This document shows positions 19,182 to 28,223 of a DNA stretch of 45,472 nt, piece by piece (within the stretch, counting starts at the first letter, position 1; each line of letters opens with the position of its first letter). The notes under the pieces are model-generated. The model ran no database searches. It was not told where the DNA came from and saw only the letters and a program-made list of their open reading frames with translations. This DNA comes from Alphaproteobacteria bacterium (GTDB lineage Bacteria > Pseudomonadota > Alphaproteobacteria > SHVP01). The position numbers and the translations under genes are program-made. The DNA lies in the NCBI GenBank assembly GCA_029936875.1, contig JAPYRS010000005.1, forward strand, positions 1 to 45,472, given 5' to 3'.

Positions 19182-19646
19182 ATGAGTGAGGTTCTGATAA
19201 CGCTGCACATCTTGGCGGCGGTGATATGGGTCGGCGGCATGTTTTTCGCCTATATAGCGCTTCGCCCCGCAGCTGGAGAACTGGATCCACCAATCCGGAC
19301 GTCGCTCCACGGTTCGATTTTTGCGCGATTTTTTCCATGGGTCTGGGCCGCAATCATCATCTTGCCGGTCACCGGCTATTTGATCACAACTTCGGAATTT
19401 GGCAGCTTTTTCGGCGGCGCCGGGGCTTGGCATGTGCACACGATGCAGCTCCTTGGCGGGCTCATGATCCTGCTGTTTCTGCACCTTTATTTCGCGCCTT
19501 ATAAGCGTATGAAAAAGGCGCTTGCGGTCGGTGATACGCCCGCGGCCGGAGCGGCCCTGGCAAAAATTCGGCGGACCATCGGCATTAACCTGATCCTCGG
19601 GTTGGTTGTCGTCATCGTTGCCACGTATGGTCGGGGCATTATCTAG
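19182..19646 (+). CDS. CopD-like four-helix membrane protein
   Basis: A 154-residue integral membrane protein with four hydrophobic segments (about 4-26, 50-70, 82-106, 130-152). The first segment holds HILAAVIWVGGMFF. Histidines follow in TM3 (AWHVHTMQLLGG) and a histidine-containing helix end (LHLYFAP). The H.....W.GG pattern is that of the CopD/HemJ-like group, in which histidines bind copper or heme. A specific substrate cannot be assigned. It has a GAGG Shine-Dalgarno and sits 21 bases after gshB. The three paralogous proteins at 21991-24090 share a comparable TM1 pattern. Confidence 0.75.
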   Translation: MSEVLITLHILAAVIWVGGMFFAYIALRPAAGELDPPIRTSLHGSIFARFFPWVWAAIIILPVTGYLITTSEFGSFFGGAGAWHVHTMQLLGGLMILLFLHLYFAPYKRMKKALAVGDTPAAGAALAKIRRTIGINLILGLVVVIVATYGRGII

Positions 19647-19657
19647 GAGCTCTTTCA

Positions 19658-20125
19658 ATGGGACGGACCGCTGCCGCAGTTGGCGCCGGGGTATTTTCGT
19701 TGGGTTTTCTGATCGGCGCGGCCGATGGCGCCAAAGCGGCAGACATAACGATTGCCGTGATAAACGTAAAAAATGATTCTGGCTCGGTGCGCCTTGCGCT
19801 CTATAGCGATCCCGAGAAATTTCCAAAGAAAGAGGGCGTTATAGCGCGCTCTTTCGCGCCGGCCGTGATCGGTGAAACCATTGTCACGTTCGCAAATGTT
19901 GAACCCGGCACCTACGCGATTATCGGATATCACGACGAAGATGATGACGAAACGTTTGATACTTTCCTGCGCATCCCGCGGGAAGATTTTGGATTTTCAA
20001 ATGATGCCGTGATTAGTCGAAAAGGTGTCAAGTTTGAGGACGTGTCGTTTGTTCTTGAAGCGAGCGGCGCCCACATTACATTCTCCGTGAAAAGTATTGG
20101 CGAGCACGCCGAAGGAATTGAGTAG
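19658..20125 (+). CDS. DUF2141 exported protein
   Basis: A 155-residue secreted protein. A signal peptide ends near GAADGAKAA (about residue 28). The mature part reads ITIAVINVKNDSGSVRLALY, then EPGTYAIIGYHDEDDDETFD and PREDFGFSNDA. These are the typical strands of DUF2141, a transthyretin-like beta sandwich of unknown function. An Asp/Glu cluster (DEDDDE) could bind a metal. It has a GGAG Shine-Dalgarno 9 bases before the ATG. Last gene of the rsmI-to-DUF2141 series; a dead transporter fragment runs towards it from the other side. Confidence 0.88.
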   Translation: MGRTAAAVGAGVFSLGFLIGAADGAKAADITIAVINVKNDSGSVRLALYSDPEKFPKKEGVIARSFAPAVIGETIVTFANVEPGTYAIIGYHDEDDDETFDTFLRIPREDFGFSNDAVISRKGVKFEDVSFVLEASGAHITFSVKSIGEHAEGIE

Positions 20126-20134
20126 TGCGCCGCC

Positions 20135-21990: not shown

Positions 21991-22671
21991 ATGAGTGCGT
22001 TCGATTACTGGCATACGATCTGGATTCTGGTTCACGTTCTACTTTTTGTGTATTGGCTCGGCGGCGACCTTGGCGTTTTTTATGGCAGCCGCTTCCGGAA
22101 TTCCAATGCCCAGGACGTGCCGACTCGCCAACTGATTGGAAAAATCACCGGCGCGGTCGATATGGCGCCCCGCACGACCCTGGTTTTAATGATGCCGGTC
22201 GGCCTAACGCTCGCCGCCGATCTCGATTTGTCGCCGGTCACCGGCTGGTGGCTTGGATTGGTCTGGATCGCTTCGCTCGCCTGGCTGTGGCTGGTCTGGC
22301 GGGTACACCTCGAAGCCTCACCCGAGCGCAAGAAACGTCTCGCCGGATTCGATATGAGACTGAGGTGGCTGGTCTTGGTTGTGCTGACGGTTTCCGCTCT
22401 TTCTACCTTCATCAGCGGCGAACCGTTCGGCGAAAACTGGCTGGCGGTGAAGGTGCTGCTCTATGCGGCGATGATCGGCTGCGGGATCATGATCCGGATC
22501 ACCATCAAGCCCTACGGCGCCGCTTTCCAAAGTCTGGTTGATAATGGCTCGACACCGGAAACCGAGGCGACCATTCAGGCGGTCGCAAAGGTATCGCGGC
22601 GCTGGGTAAAAACAATTTGGGCGCTGCTTCTGGTTGCGGCGTGGTTCGGCATCGCGCAACCCAATATCTGA
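21991..22671 (+). CDS. Membrane protein, paralogue 1 of 3 (HxxxxxYWxGxDLGVFY family)
   Basis: A 226-residue integral membrane protein with about five to six hydrophobic helices and no recognised enzyme motif. TM1 carries His15 followed by YWLGGDLGVFY (21-31). PRTTLVLMMPVG, LSPVTGWW, NWLAVKVLLYAA, CGIMIRITIKPYG, NGSTPETE and a C-terminal QPNI follow. All of these recur in the next two genes. The histidine-plus-W.G.D helix recalls CopD/DUF2269-type heme or copper membrane proteins, but this link is inference. A GGGAGC Shine-Dalgarno precedes the ATG. A hairpin (ACCCAAT ... ATTGGGT, 22659-22686) spans its stop codon. Confidence 0.8.
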   Translation: MSAFDYWHTIWILVHVLLFVYWLGGDLGVFYGSRFRNSNAQDVPTRQLIGKITGAVDMAPRTTLVLMMPVGLTLAADLDLSPVTGWWLGLVWIASLAWLWLVWRVHLEASPERKKRLAGFDMRLRWLVLVVLTVSALSTFISGEPFGENWLAVKVLLYAAMIGCGIMIRITIKPYGAAFQSLVDNGSTPETEATIQAVAKVSRRWVKTIWALLLVAAWFGIAQPNI

Positions 22672-22743
22672 TTTCGGCAATTGGGTGCACCGTCATAGGG
22701 CGGCGCACCTCCAGAAACATGTTTGAACGGTTGAGGAAAACAC

Positions 22744-23412
22744 ATGGAAATGCAGGGAATATGGGCGTTCATCCACGTCATGTTTCTGGTCTATTGGCTC
22801 GGCGCCGATCTCGGCGTGTTCTACGTCGCCTATCAGATCATCAAGCCGGAACATTCACCGGAGGCGAGGGCGACCCTTCTAAAAGTGTTGGGGTTCATCG
22901 ACGGATTTCCGCGCGCGGTTTCAATATTTATGCTGCCGGTAGGAATTCAACTGGCTGACGGCCTCGGCCTGTCGCCGGTTTCGGGCGGCATGTTGTGGCT
23001 TCCGTGGATTGCCGCCCTCATCTGGTTTGCCATTGCCTATAGCGCGAACGCGCGGCGCACGACGCCACGGGGAAAACAGCTCGCGAAACTCGATCTCGCG
23101 ATTCGGGCGGCTCTGGTTCTCGGCCTCGGCGTCTTTTCGATTGCCACGTTTGTTTCGGGTGGCCCGTTCGGGGCCAATTGGTTGGCGCTCAAAGTTCTAT
23201 GTTTCGCCCTGATCCTGATTTGCGGCATTGGCATTCGTCTCACCTTCATCCCATTTGGCCCGGCGTTTGGCCGGTTGATGGCGGAAGGGTCGACCCCAGA
23301 GGTGGAAGCGACGTTGAAACGCGCCGTTGATCGGGTCGTGCCGTTTGTATTGGCGCTTTGGTTTTTGCTCGGCGTGGCTGCGTTGATCGGCATTTCGCAG
23401 CCGGATTTTTAG
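22744..23412 (+). CDS. Membrane protein, paralogue 2 of 3
   Basis: A 222-residue homologue of the preceding gene. His11 and YWLGADLGVFYVAY (from 17) are in TM1. PRAVSIFMLPVG, LSPVSGGMLWLPW, FGANWLALKVLCFA, CGIGIRLTFIPFGPAF and EGSTPEVE follow, ending SQPDF. The helix order and lengths are identical to its neighbours. The strongest Shine-Dalgarno of the three (GAGGAAA) lies 6 bases before the ATG. Sequence divergence among the three copies is large apart from the motifs, so the triplication is old and each copy has probably taken its own role. Confidence 0.8.
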   Translation: MEMQGIWAFIHVMFLVYWLGADLGVFYVAYQIIKPEHSPEARATLLKVLGFIDGFPRAVSIFMLPVGIQLADGLGLSPVSGGMLWLPWIAALIWFAIAYSANARRTTPRGKQLAKLDLAIRAALVLGLGVFSIATFVSGGPFGANWLALKVLCFALILICGIGIRLTFIPFGPAFGRLMAEGSTPEVEATLKRAVDRVVPFVLALWFLLGVAALIGISQPDF

Positions 23413-23421
23413 GGGTCGGAA

Positions 23422-24090
23422 ATGGAAGCACATGATTTTTGGTTATTTCTGCATCTTCTGACTTTTGTCTACTGGATGGGTGCCGACCTCGGCGTGTTCT
23501 ATTCGTCGCGCTTCGTCATCAACAGTTCGTATCAGCCAGCGACGCGGGCGTTGTTGTTGAAGACACTGGCGTGGCTCGACATGGTGCCGCGATACGCGCT
23601 TTTGTTGACGCTGCCGGTTGGATTACGGCTCGCCGGTGATCTCAATATTTCGCCAGTGTCGGGCGGTTCGTTCTGGCTGGTCTGGCTTGGGCTTATCATT
23701 TGGGTCGCGCTGGTCACGCAAATTCATCGCCGTGAAGGGACCGAAGCCGCAAAGACGCTTGCCAAAATTGACATGGTGCTGCGCTTTGTTCTGGTCGTGG
23801 TGCTTGCGGTGACGGCAATCATGTCGCTTTCGGGATCTGCGATTTACGGCACCGATTGGCTTGCGGTGAAGGTTCTGTTGTTTGCCGCCGCCGTTGGCTG
23901 CGGTTTCATGATCCGGATTACGTTTAAGCCCTTTGGGCCGGCTTTTGCCGCGATCATGAAAGACGGCTCGACCCCCGAACAGGAAACCAAACTCCGAAAT
24001 TCGCTCAATGCTGCGGCCCGCTGGGTTGTGGTGTTGTGGGTTATTATTGCGGCGGCGGCTTTTTTCGGTATCACCCAGCCGAGTTTCTAG
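23422..24090 (+). CDS. Membrane protein, paralogue 3 of 3
   Basis: A 222-residue third copy, 9 bases after the stop of paralogue 2, so clearly co-transcribed with it. It conserves His11 with YWMGADLGVFY, PRYALLLTLPVG, ISPVSGGSFWLVW, TDWLAVKVLLFAA, CGFMIRITFKPFGPAF, DGSTPEQE and ITQPSF. Copies 1 and 3 share IRIT.KP.G, while 2 and 3 share SPVSGG and FGPAF. The invariant residues (His, Trp, Asp in TM1; Pro-Arg before TM2; Asp near TM4) are candidates for a cofactor or ion site. Function unknown. Confidence 0.8.
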   Translation: MEAHDFWLFLHLLTFVYWMGADLGVFYSSRFVINSSYQPATRALLLKTLAWLDMVPRYALLLTLPVGLRLAGDLNISPVSGGSFWLVWLGLIIWVALVTQIHRREGTEAAKTLAKIDMVLRFVLVVVLAVTAIMSLSGSAIYGTDWLAVKVLLFAAAVGCGFMIRITFKPFGPAFAAIMKDGSTPEQETKLRNSLNAAARWVVVLWVIIAAAAFFGITQPSF

Positions 24091-24103
24091 TCTCCATTTC
24101 AGC

Positions 24104-24155
24104 CAATCGTTTTGGCCAGTCGTTTTGGCCAGTCGTTTTCGCCAATCGTATCGAA
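24104..24155. repeat. 13 bp tandem repeat, about 4 copies, before the binding-protein gene
   Basis: CAATCGTTTTGGC (24104), CAGTCGTTTTGGC (24117), CAGTCGTTTTCGC (24130) and a decayed CAATCGTATCGAA (24143) follow each other without spacers. They lie between the end of membrane paralogue 3 and the binding-protein ATG at 24209, where a promoter would be expected. They could be operator iterons or only slippage products. Confidence 0.85.
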
Positions 24156-24208: not shown

Positions 24209-26062
24209 ATGAAACGGGTCCAGAGTTTCTGCTTTGCCGCCGCCTTTGTTGCTGGCGCGACCATTGCTGGTCAAGCAATCTTCGCTGGCCAAGCCCTCAT
24301 CGTGGGGCAAGCGGCGGCCGAACCGCAACACGGAGTCGCCATGCACGGCGCACCAAAATATTCGGCGGGATTTTCGCATCTCGAATACACAGACCCGAAG
24401 GCGCCGAAAGGTGGCGAAATTCGATTTGGTGTCACCGGATCCTTCGACAGTTTGCAGCCGTTCATCATCAAGGGCCGGGCCGCGGCGGGGCGGCATTTTG
24501 TTTTCGAAAGCCTTTTGAAACGTGTCTGGGACGAACCGTTTTCAATGTACGGATTGATCGCGGAAACCGTGGAGATGCCGTCCGACCGCAACTGGGTTGA
24601 ATTCAAATTACACAGCGACGCGCGCTGGCATGACGGCACACCGATCATGGTCGAAGATGTAATCTGGTCGATGGAAACATTGCGCGATCAAGGCCGGCCC
24701 AATCACAAACTTTTCTATTCGAAAGTGATAGAGGTGACGCGACCGGCACCGAACACGGTCCGGTTTGATTTCGGCCCCGACAATGACGACCGCGAACTGG
24801 CGTTGCTGATGGGTCTGATGCCGGTGCTTTCCAAAAATCATTTTGCCGATCGCGAATTCAACGAAACGACGCTCGAGCCGATTCTTGGCTCCGGTCCTTA
24901 CCGGATTGCGGATGTCGATCCAGGCCGGTCGATCGAATACGAGCGCGTCACCGATTATTGGGCGCAGGGCCTCGGTGTAAACGCCGGCCAAAACAATTTT
25001 GACCGCATTAAGTATGACTATTTTCTCGATGGCACGGTCCTGTTCGAGGCCTTCAAGGCTGACGAATATGATTTTCGTAGCGAATTTTCGGCGACGCGAT
25101 GGGCAATCGGCTACGATTTTCCGGCCGTTGACGATGGCCGTGTGGTCAAGGAAATGCTGGAAAATGATCGCCCATCCGGCATGCGCGGCTTTGTCTTTAA
25201 TACACGCCGCGAGGTTTTTGCGGATCGCGCCGTTCGGGAAGCACTGTCCTACGCCTTTGATTTTGAGTGGGTAAACAAAAACCTCCTCCACGGGGCCTAT
25301 ACGCGCAGCGAAAGTTTTTTCGCCAATTCCGAACTCGCGTCGAACAGCATTCCGCAGGGTGCAGAACGGGCGCTTTTGGAACCACACCGCGGCGCGGTCC
25401 CGGGAGAAGTATTTTTAAAACAGTTTAGTGCACCGAAAACCGACGGTACCGGCAACGTCCGGGCCAACCTCCGCAAGGCGTTGGCGCTATTGAGGGCCGC
25501 CGGTTGGAACTTGAAAGACGGGGCGTTAACGCGTGGCTCAGATGGGCTGCCGATGACGTTCGAGATTTTGCTGGTCTCGCCGTCGAACGAAAAAATCGCC
25601 CTTGCCTATGCGCGCAATCTCGAACGGATCGGCGTCATCGCCAAAGTGCGCACAGTGGATTCGGCGCAGTATCAAGGCCGCCGCACCGCCTACGATTACG
25701 ACATGATTATTTTTCGTTGGGGCATTTCCCTTTCGCCCGGAAACGAGCAGGCTTTTTACTGGGGTTCGGAAGCGGCAGACCAGGACGGCTCCCGCAACTA
25801 CATGGGTGCGAAAGACCCGGTCATGGACGATCTGATTTTAAGAGTAACCATGGCCGATGATCGCATCGGGCTTGTCACCGCGATGCGCGCGCTCGACCGC
25901 GTGTTGTTATGGAACCATTACGTGGTGCCGCTCTATTACCTTGAGAGCGACCGTGCCGCCTATTGGGACCGTTTCGGCCATCCGGCAACAACGTCGACTT
26001 ACGGAAATGTTATTGAGAGTTGGTGGGAAGACCCGAAGAAACTCGCAGCCAATCCGCGCTAG
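24209..26062 (+). CDS. Extracellular solute-binding protein, family 5 (YejA-like peptide binding)
   Basis: A 617-residue periplasmic binding protein of an oligopeptide/microcin-C type ABC importer. ATG 24209, with AGGGAGA upstream, starts a signal peptide made of a 6-residue repeat (AGQAIF, AGQALI, VGQAAA) before the mature HGVAMHGAPKY. Cluster-C features follow: YTDPKAPKGGEIRFGVTGSF, GLIAETVEMP, LHSDARWHDGTPIMVEDVIW, LGSGPYRIADVDPGRSIEYER and EALSYAFDFEWVN. The YTDP.APKGG..R text is typical of YejA. No permease or ATPase gene is adjacent, so it must work with components encoded elsewhere. It is convergent with a methyltransferase gene. Confidence 0.92.
   Translation: MKRVQSFCFAAAFVAGATIAGQAIFAGQALIVGQAAAEPQHGVAMHGAPKYSAGFSHLEYTDPKAPKGGEIRFGVTGSFDSLQPFIIKGRAAAGRHFVFESLLKRVWDEPFSMYGLIAETVEMPSDRNWVEFKLHSDARWHDGTPIMVEDVIWSMETLRDQGRPNHKLFYSKVIEVTRPAPNTVRFDFGPDNDDRELALLMGLMPVLSKNHFADREFNETTLEPILGSGPYRIADVDPGRSIEYERVTDYWAQGLGVNAGQNNFDRIKYDYFLDGTVLFEAFKADEYDFRSEFSATRWAIGYDFPAVDDGRVVKEMLENDRPSGMRGFVFNTRREVFADRAVREALSYAFDFEWVNKNLLHGAYTRSESFFANSELASNSIPQGAERALLEPHRGAVPGEVFLKQFSAPKTDGTGNVRANLRKALALLRAAGWNLKDGALTRGSDGLPMTFEILLVSPSNEKIALAYARNLERIGVIAKVRTVDSAQYQGRRTAYDYDMIIFRWGISLSPGNEQAFYWGSEAADQDGSRNYMGAKDPVMDDLILRVTMADDRIGLVTAMRALDRVLLWNHYVVPLYYLESDRAAYWDRFGHPATTSTYGNVIESWWEDPKKLAANPR
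24266..24319 (+). repeat. 18 bp x 3 tandem repeat inside the signal-peptide coding region
   Basis: Units at 24266, 24284 and 24302 (GCTGGTCAAGC..., GCTGGCCAAGC..., GTGGGGCAAGC...) encode AGQAIF, AGQALI and VGQAAA. The hydrophobic core of the signal peptide has been lengthened in steps of six residues. Confidence 0.75.
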
Positions 26063-26843: not shown

Positions 26844-27227
26844 TTTTTCTCCGGATAATTTCGCGCGACCATGCCGCCTGGCCCGCGCCCGGGTCAAGCC
26901 GATTTCGAATCGGCCTGATAAATTCGGGCGAGGCTTCATCTCACGGCATCATTTCATGCGGCCCGGCGGCCTGAATATTTGCCAATTGTGAACGGGCACT
27001 TTCCTGGGCGCATCAAAAGACGTTCCCGGCAGTTGAAGCTAACTATCTGTTTCTATGTGGTTATTCCGGTCCCTTGAGGTGAAAAATTCAGCCGAAGCCC
27101 GCCGCCTCTGGCGGATTTGCGCCCGCGACAAATTTATCCCTCGGCATATTCGGAATCTATGACCATATTGGTTCGGAGAACGCGGCTTTCACATAGCAAG
27201 TTGGGCGAGCCGCGGGAGGTAGTCTCG
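26844..27227. other. Non-coding divergent interval with a hairpin
   Basis: The 384 bases between the divergent methyltransferase and OlsB-like genes contain no convincing gene. A perfect inverted repeat GCCGATT-TCG-AATCGGC (26898-26914) lies 55 bases upstream of the methyltransferase start and could be an operator. A shorter stem CCGCC-TCT-GGCGG is at 27102-27114. No promoter pair is clear enough to call. Confidence 0.5.
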
Positions 27228-28223
27228 ATGGGAAAAACCAAGCGCTCTGTTGTCGCACTCCAGCGTGCGGTTAGGGGCCTCCGGAAAGTTCCGAATTGGC
27301 GACGGCGTCGCGGCGACGCGACTAAACGGACGCGCGGCCCGGTTGCCAAGTTCATGCGCGCGCGTGCCGAACGGCGCGACAGGCGTTCCCTGCGGACGAG
27401 GAAAGAAGCGTTGCAGTACGACGATCCGACCATCATGAATTCCGCGGACGGGCGATTTGAAATTCGCATTACCCGCGCGGACGCTGATATTTCCGCCGCG
27501 CAGGAATTGCGCTACCGCATTTTTTACGAAGAAATGGATGCCGTCGCATCGGAGCAAACCAAAATCCTCCGCCGTGATGCCGACACCTTCGATTCGATCT
27601 GCGATCATATTCTGGTCAATGACGTGACGCGCGCCGCGGGCGATCAGGCGGTCGGGACATACCGTCTGCTGCGCCACGATGTGGCTCTGGCCCATCGCGG
27701 GTTTTATTCGGCGGACGAATATGACCTCTCCAATATTCTCGGTCGGTCGACCGACAACACGGGCATCTGTGAAATTGGGCGATCAAGCGTCCACGCCGAT
27801 TACCGCAACAATGCGACCATCCAGTTATTGTGGCGTGGGCTCGCGCGATATTTTTCGGAAAATGAAATCACCTACACGCTGGGGTGCGCAAGTTTTCCGG
27901 GGGTTGATCCTGCCGTCCATGCGTTGCCGCTTTCCTATCTTTATCATCATCATCTCGCGCGGGAGGACCTGCGCGCCCGCGCGCTGCCCGATCGGTTTTC
28001 AGAGATGAACCTGATGCCAAAAGATCAGATCGAATTGAAAAAGGCATTGAAGCAAATGCCGCCGCTGATTAAAGCCTATCTCCGCCTCGGCGCATTTGTC
28101 GGTGACGGCGCCGTCATTGATCACCAGTTTCACACCACCGACGTCTTCGTGATTACCGACATGGCGACGATTCCGGAAAAATATCACGTTCACTTTGAAC
28201 GCGAAGCCGCACTTCAATCCTGA
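27228..28223 (+). CDS. OlsB-like GNAT N-acyltransferase (ornithine lipid type)
   Basis: A 331-residue protein whose C-terminal 260 residues match the hemolysin/OlsB GNAT fold. The text includes ELRYRIFYEEMDA, DSICDHILVND, VGTYRLLRHD, ICEIGRSSVHADYR, LGCASFPGVDP and PLIKAYLRLGAFVGDGAVID. OlsB transfers a 3-hydroxyacyl chain from ACP to the alpha-amine of ornithine, the first step in ornithine-lipid synthesis. ATG 27228 has GGGAGGT 8 bases upstream, so it is preferred over the frame's first codon at 27117. It carries an unusual Arg/Lys-rich N-terminal extension of about 75 residues before the GNAT core. The partner O-acyltransferase gene olsA is not adjacent, so the substrate is not certain. 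Confidence 0.82.
   Translation: MGKTKRSVVALQRAVRGLRKVPNWRRRRGDATKRTRGPVAKFMRARAERRDRRSLRTRKEALQYDDPTIMNSADGRFEIRITRADADISAAQELRYRIFYEEMDAVASEQTKILRRDADTFDSICDHILVNDVTRAAGDQAVGTYRLLRHDVALAHRGFYSADEYDLSNILGRSTDNTGICEIGRSSVHADYRNNATIQLLWRGLARYFSENEITYTLGCASFPGVDPAVHALPLSYLYHHHLAREDLRARALPDRFSEMNLMPKDQIELKKALKQMPPLIKAYLRLGAFVGDGAVIDHQFHTTDVFVITDMATIPEKYHVHFEREAALQS

Follow-up and report, generated by a model that had tools for sequence, protein, structure and literature searches.

What do three neighbouring genes for related membrane proteins do when the proteins match no named family? The question is raised by a stretch of 45,472 nucleotides from an alphaproteobacterium (contig JAPYRS010000005.1 of assembly GCA_029936875.1; hereafter the window), where three such genes, called here T1, T2 and T3, lie in tandem (Table 1). 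The initial annotation had described them as a triplet of an uncharacterised membrane family, suggested that three unequal copies could form a hetero-oligomer or serve three parallel substrates, and considered the histidine of the first membrane helix (TM1) and a CopD-like gene nearby as hints of a heme or copper site.

Table 1. Features of the triplet locus, in window coordinates
Feature	Position	Strand	Description
T1	21991..22671	+	first triplet gene, 226 aa, six-TM; ORF, AlphaFold model, clade of 9 genomes
T1 His15 codon (TM1)	22033..22035	+	His in 121/121 family sequences examined
T1 Asp26 codon	22066..22068	+	Asp in 119/121 sequences, Glu in 2
T2	22744..23412	+	222-aa paralogue; ORF, model, clade
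T2 Asp53-Gly-Phe-Pro-Arg57 codons	22900..22914	+	corresponds to the D57/R61 motif in family numbering
T3	23422..24090	+	222-aa paralogue; ORF, clade
YejA/YepA-type solute-binding protein (SBP_bac_5)	24209..26062	+	co-directional neighbour in 8/9 triplet loci

The three genes and their family

The three co-oriented ORFs of 222-226 codons were recovered as first described, separated by 72 bp (T1-T2) and 9 bp (T2-T3), with a further 118 bp between T3 and the solute-binding protein gene, which flanks the triplet on one side, an opposite-strand amidase gene being located on the other. The proteins are 42-46% identical in pairwise, nearly gapless alignments, having about 66 columns common to all three, and every motif reported for the window copies is present: the TM1 histidine, YW(L/M)G(G/A)DLGVFY, PR before TM2, SPV(T/S)G, WLA-x-KVL and IR(I/L)T. 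However, the PR before TM2 holds for these three copies but not as a rule of the triplet, as T2 of every other triplet locus lacks the arginine. Likewise, "triplet" is a fitting name for three genes side by side but not for the whole set, as the window genome (2.70 Mb draft, 94.5% complete) carries seven copies, comprising the triplet, a pair on contig C167 and singletons on C60 and C21.

Regarding the family, T1-T3 reach the cut-off of none of the Pfam, NCBIfam and PHROG models, and the one annotated copy examined, on plasmid pJE1, is named "hypothetical protein", in agreement with the label "uncharacterised". A scan of genome contigs returned 236 relatives, and in the 80 loci kept the hosts are Alpha-, Beta- and Gammaproteobacteria, Actinomycetota and one Myxococcota contig; family genes are also present on plasmids of Novosphingobium, Sphingobium and Sphingomonas. 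The spread is patchy, the family being found in two of 160 genomes drawn across the phylum. Among 105 aligned sequences, H15, W22, G24, R46, W98 and K154 are invariant and D26, D57, P60 and G71 nearly so. One of the retrieval patterns was VYW[LM]G[AG]DL, so that the conservation of YWxGxD is partly built in by selection, while H15, R46, W98 and K154 lie outside both patterns used. The copies found by profile, independently of these patterns, all keep H15, W22, G24, W98 and K154, with D26 replaced by Glu in one and R46 by Lys in one. Among 121 homologues, the TM1 His is constant and the TM1 Asp nearly so (Table 1).

The AlphaFold models of T1 (pLDDT 97.4, pTM 0.91) and T2 (pLDDT 96.1, pTM 0.90) are confident and all-helical; both span the membrane approximately six times, and TM1 is followed by an amphipathic segment. 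By a count of loop charges alone, the loops following TM1, TM3 and TM5 are predicted to be cytoplasmic and both termini to face outside. The PDB, searched by sequence and by fold, gave no match at E <= 1e-3. This missing fold match is weak evidence for a new fold, because PDB sequence searches with one HemJ, one PuuD, one DUF2269 and one CopD-like protein also returned no relative and no solved structure.

Descent of the triplet and divergence of T2

Of ten genomes in the taxonomic family, nine have T1, T2 and T3 in this order. When 121 proteins were placed in a tree, each of the three lay on one side of a single branch in 100% of the bootstraps, with clade supports of 100/99 for T1 (nine genomes), 100/97 for T2 and 100/99 for T3, and the pN/pS values of 0.10-0.31 for the three genes correspond to purifying selection. 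The tree shows a single origin of the triplet, preceding the radiation of the taxonomic family, and a separate descent of each position; a recent tandem duplication is ruled out by the same tree. The pair on C167 groups within the T2 and T3 clades; therefore, T2 and T3 were copied together.

Besides their common retention, the paralogues differ at a local site. Among the non-T2 proteins, D57 is present in 111 of 111 and Arg or Lys occupies position 61 in 111 of 111, whereas nine of the ten T2 proteins have Asn at 57 and nine of ten lack Arg/Lys at 61. The H106 column follows a related pattern, with His in 67/111 non-T2 proteins and 0/10 T2 proteins. Meanwhile, T2 retains H15, W22, D26, R46, W98, D121, R125 and K154. 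The T2 of the window is, judging from its residues, an intermediate, as D57 and R61 are kept but the H106 column holds Asn and the R34 column Tyr. When one of three paralogues that are retained together loses a local site, this typically marks it as a specialised subunit of a hetero-oligomer, and the divergence of T2 suggests such a role.

The putative hetero-oligomer anticipated by the initial annotation is therefore made more plausible by three features, namely the old orthologous clades, the D57/R61 loss confined to T2 and the co-duplication of T2 and T3, each paralogue being a separate, co-retained orthologous lineage in the tree (nine genomes, support 100).

On C167 the window genome carries T2 and T3 once more, this time with no T1 (L120, G000:C167, 5404-6774); this pair may be of horizontal origin or the result of binning contamination. 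Its T2 has the full D57N/R61N loss, in contrast to the T2 of the window.

Gene neighbourhoods and candidate functions

To describe the gene contexts, family genes were forced into the gene calls and codon-position GC was used. Outside the triplet, an FAD_binding_4 dehydrogenase/oxidoreductase and an ALDH, a combination that occurs with a GntR-UTRA regulator, accompany the family gene at L047, L061, L075 and L085, and a TRAP transporter (DctM), a redoxin and an MFS protein at L015, L023, L025 and L048. In Actinomycetota the neighbours are an acyl-CoA ligase and a DUF4437/cupin protein, and in Novosphingobium and Sphingomonas they are CaiB and LeuC-like enzymes; other catabolic neighbours include nitrilase with SDR and alpha/beta hydrolases, as well as GST. 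A divergent singleton is present in seven genomes of the taxonomic family and on C60 of the window genome (L110-L119), surrounded at most of these loci by a nitrilase-like CN_hydrolase protein of about 570 aa, an SDR and long alpha/beta hydrolases, with a TRAP transporter near it at L114-L116.

The gene seen most often beside the family encodes a soluble, DUF3108-like protein (about 240 aa), which matches Pfam DUF3108 below the cut-off and is found at 26 of 105 loci, some of them duplicate records. Of the 12 genomes with the family, 11 contain it, compared with one of the 24 without the family (Fisher p 2e-7); counted by taxonomic family, the figures are 3/4 versus 0/23 (p 0.0014). In G165 its gene lies 5 bp from a family gene. 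The neighbourhoods of the DUF3108-like protein are too mixed for a pathway to be named. It is also multiplied in G002, G005 and others, to a maximum of 20 copies per genome, with tandem runs of four, as in L291 (3162-6088).

According to the explanation preferred here, T1, T2 and T3 would be co-expressed subunits of a single inner-membrane complex, each of them a six-helix protein from a remote branch of the superfamily with H-x6-W-x-G in the first helix (DUF2269, SirB, CopD and HemJ), and T2 would be specialised and in part inactive, a partner to T1 and T3. The complex would help to break down an organic compound, its most likely role being that of an oxidoreductase embedded in the membrane or of a redox partner, as the gene context and the remote kin suggest. 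The residues lining its working site may be H15 and K154 towards the outside and D26, R46, D57, R61, D121 and R125 towards the cytoplasm, and its action could resemble that of PuuD (a membrane urate oxidase) or HemJ (protoporphyrinogen oxidase), although it would belong to neither family. As a whole, with one inner-membrane complex, a specialised T2, a catabolic role and probably oxidoreductase activity, this explanation is put forward tentatively. The position of the window triplet, between the amidase and solute-binding protein genes and outside an enzyme operon, counts against it, as do the single invariant His, which makes a bis-His heme unlikely, and the lack of a significant profile match to PuuD. 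It is decidedly unlikely that the triplet is a new integral-membrane catabolic oxidoreductase, assembled as a hetero-oligomer of three paralogues with T2 as a pseudo-subunit lacking the D57/R61 pair, that has soluble DUF3108-like proteins as pathway partners.

The main rival to the oxidoreductase reading, rather doubtful in itself, is that these proteins are small secondary transporters, or accessory subunits of transport, for an organic acid or a similar catabolite, with T2 having a regulatory role. Six TM helices within about 220 aa and numerous charged residues kept invariant within or close to the membrane would suit a transporter, as would the catabolic neighbours and the gene for a solute-binding protein found 3' of the triplet in eight of the nine loci. 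However, no transporter family is similar, and the superfamily members of known function (HemJ and PuuD) are oxidases. Moreover, TRAP, MFS or TonB transporters already adjoin the family gene at many singleton loci, and the presence of such varied transporters argues against the family protein being the transporter.

It is also unlikely that T1, T2 and T3 are three independent homomeric proteins, performing parallel tasks on different substrates with no complex. Each triplet position diverged long ago, singletons work alone in most other genomes and several extra copies outside the triplet exist per genome, all of which would fit independent proteins; nevertheless, the T1-T2-T3 order and its tight spacing are kept in nine genomes, the D57/R61 loss is restricted to T2, T2 and T3 were copied jointly on C167, and T2-type proteins are not found outside the triplet loci and the C167 pair.

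A strict heme-binding or copper-handling protein, with heme b as in HemJ or copper as in CopD, is very unlikely. Although it is favoured by a distant similarity to the HemJ and CopD profiles and by a TM1 with the same H-x6-W spacing, the CopD-like set of metal ligands (His, Met and Cys) is reduced to one invariant His, with no invariant Cys or Met, and a bis-His heme is unlikely because only that His is invariant, the next best candidate being H106 with the counts given above. In addition, the genome already has its own HemJ, and a conserved copper or heme gene is absent from all the neighbourhoods mapped. The heme or copper site of the initial annotation was not upheld, nor was the hint seen in the CopD-like gene at 19182, whose place near the triplet is not conserved: the opposite-strand amidase gene separates the two, and ComM, GrpE or, at one locus, an MFS gene is upstream of the other triplets. 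The CopD-like membrane protein itself (19182-20128, PF05425) has the H-x6-W-x-G spacing and is paired with a neighbouring DUF2141 protein.

Hardly probable at all is a new binding-protein-dependent transporter that combines the YejA/YepA-type protein with the three membrane subunits, for although the T1-T2-T3-SBP5 order recurs in 8/9 triplet loci with no ABC permease genes alongside, the two are uncoupled in G001 (binding protein only) and in G005 (triplet only), and orphan proteins of the YepA type are known to work with YejBEF encoded elsewhere (PMC9790009). In G001, a 65% identical solute-binding protein lies between ComM and a reversed pyrE; as both modules occur apart, the triplet forms an independent module. 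No ABC permease and ATPase genes were found beside the triplet in the nine locus gene maps, in which families were assigned for part of the genes.

Some other elements were observed downstream of the triplet. The orphan YejA/YepA-type gene of the window (24209-26062) is 53-62% identical to its counterparts in seven other triplet genomes and has no permease gene beside it. Between T3 and this gene, at 24095-24150, there is a direct repeat of about 14 bases (CCAGTCGTTTTGG type) in some three to four copies. Further on, an OlsB-like ornithine N-acyltransferase is encoded at 27117-28223, with a best NCBIfam score of 305.9, slightly below the cut-off of 320, and its order with MutS and a methyltransferase is conserved.

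Relation to HemJ, CopD, DUF2269, SirB and PuuD

The HemJ/CopD/DUF2269/PuuD superfamily includes at least two unusual membrane oxidases, and the triplet family adds to it clear invariant residues, a confident model and a recurring catabolic setting. What is new here is the triplet in nine of ten genomes of the taxonomic family, with its three clades, its purifying selection and the loss of D57/R61 in T2 only, T2 then being a natural experiment in subunit specialisation. Its residues can be tested, as can a partner, the DUF3108-like protein, and experiments are made possible by the fact that some singleton members have cultured hosts (Caulobacter, Novosphingobium, Nocardioides, Litorivivens and strain TMPK1).

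Comparing profiles by hhalign, where E-values are pairwise, without database correction, and the target families were collected for this analysis, the best match was DUF2269 (PF10027), with E 3.4e-5 over the C-terminal part and a second alignment of 1.4e-3 over TM1-TM3, followed by SirB (PF04247; 2.9e-4), CopD (PF05425; 1.1e-3) and HemJ (PF03653; 3.5e-3). In the controls, E was 0.027-0.6 for ten unrelated membrane clusters and 0.06-0.46 for reversed profiles. PuuD/Urate_ox_N (PF06181) was not significant, with 0.018 over the full length and 0.03 across 89 columns (short DUF989), so that direct membership of PuuD is unsupported. The kinship with CopD, DUF2269 and HemJ proposed initially thus stands as a remote profile similarity above the controls, but it falls below all curated cut-offs. 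For the DUF2269 Pfam model (gathering cut-off of 28 bits), T1-T3 had no match up to E 10, and by HMMER 6 of the 105 family members match it (best E 4.4e-5), none above the Pfam cut-off. Among the HemJ models, the best score was 11 bits against a cut-off of 34.2 (PF03653), and TIGR00701 had no match for T1-T3. The CopD Pfam model likewise had no match for T1-T3, and CopD was outside the 25 best-represented families for the 105 members. As a remote similarity, these comparisons support an unnamed family that would be a further branch near this superfamily.

The spacing H-x6-W-x-G in TM1 is common to the triplet family, CopD-like proteins and PuuD, HemJ having H-x6-W. Besides these similarities, each relative differs in its architecture. 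DUF2269, the best profile match, has 150 aa, compared to about 222 aa and six helices in the triplet family. SirB has the WL-x-x-K-V motif in common with it, but both SirB and CopD are shorter, have another gene context and lie under each curated cut-off. HemJ resembles the family in TM1, where H-x6-W is followed by FY-x-x-R, and in a WL-x-x-K motif; however, it has 140 aa and the size of a 4-TM protein, and a genuine, separate HemJ is encoded on C94 of the window genome, which rules out the triplet as a HemJ substitute. PuuD is an integral-membrane urate oxidase reported to be distantly similar to DUF2269, and the separate transporters nearby were used as an argument against its being a transporter (PMC4562309). 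It has eight helices and a C-terminal cytochrome c, compared to six helices, about 222 aa and no added domain in the triplet family, but its N-terminal domain (DUF989) resembles the family in the TM1 H-x6-W-x-G and in the outside-outside topology predicted for the family, and PuuD is likewise encoded in catabolic gene clusters with separate transporters, as are the genes of the triplet family.
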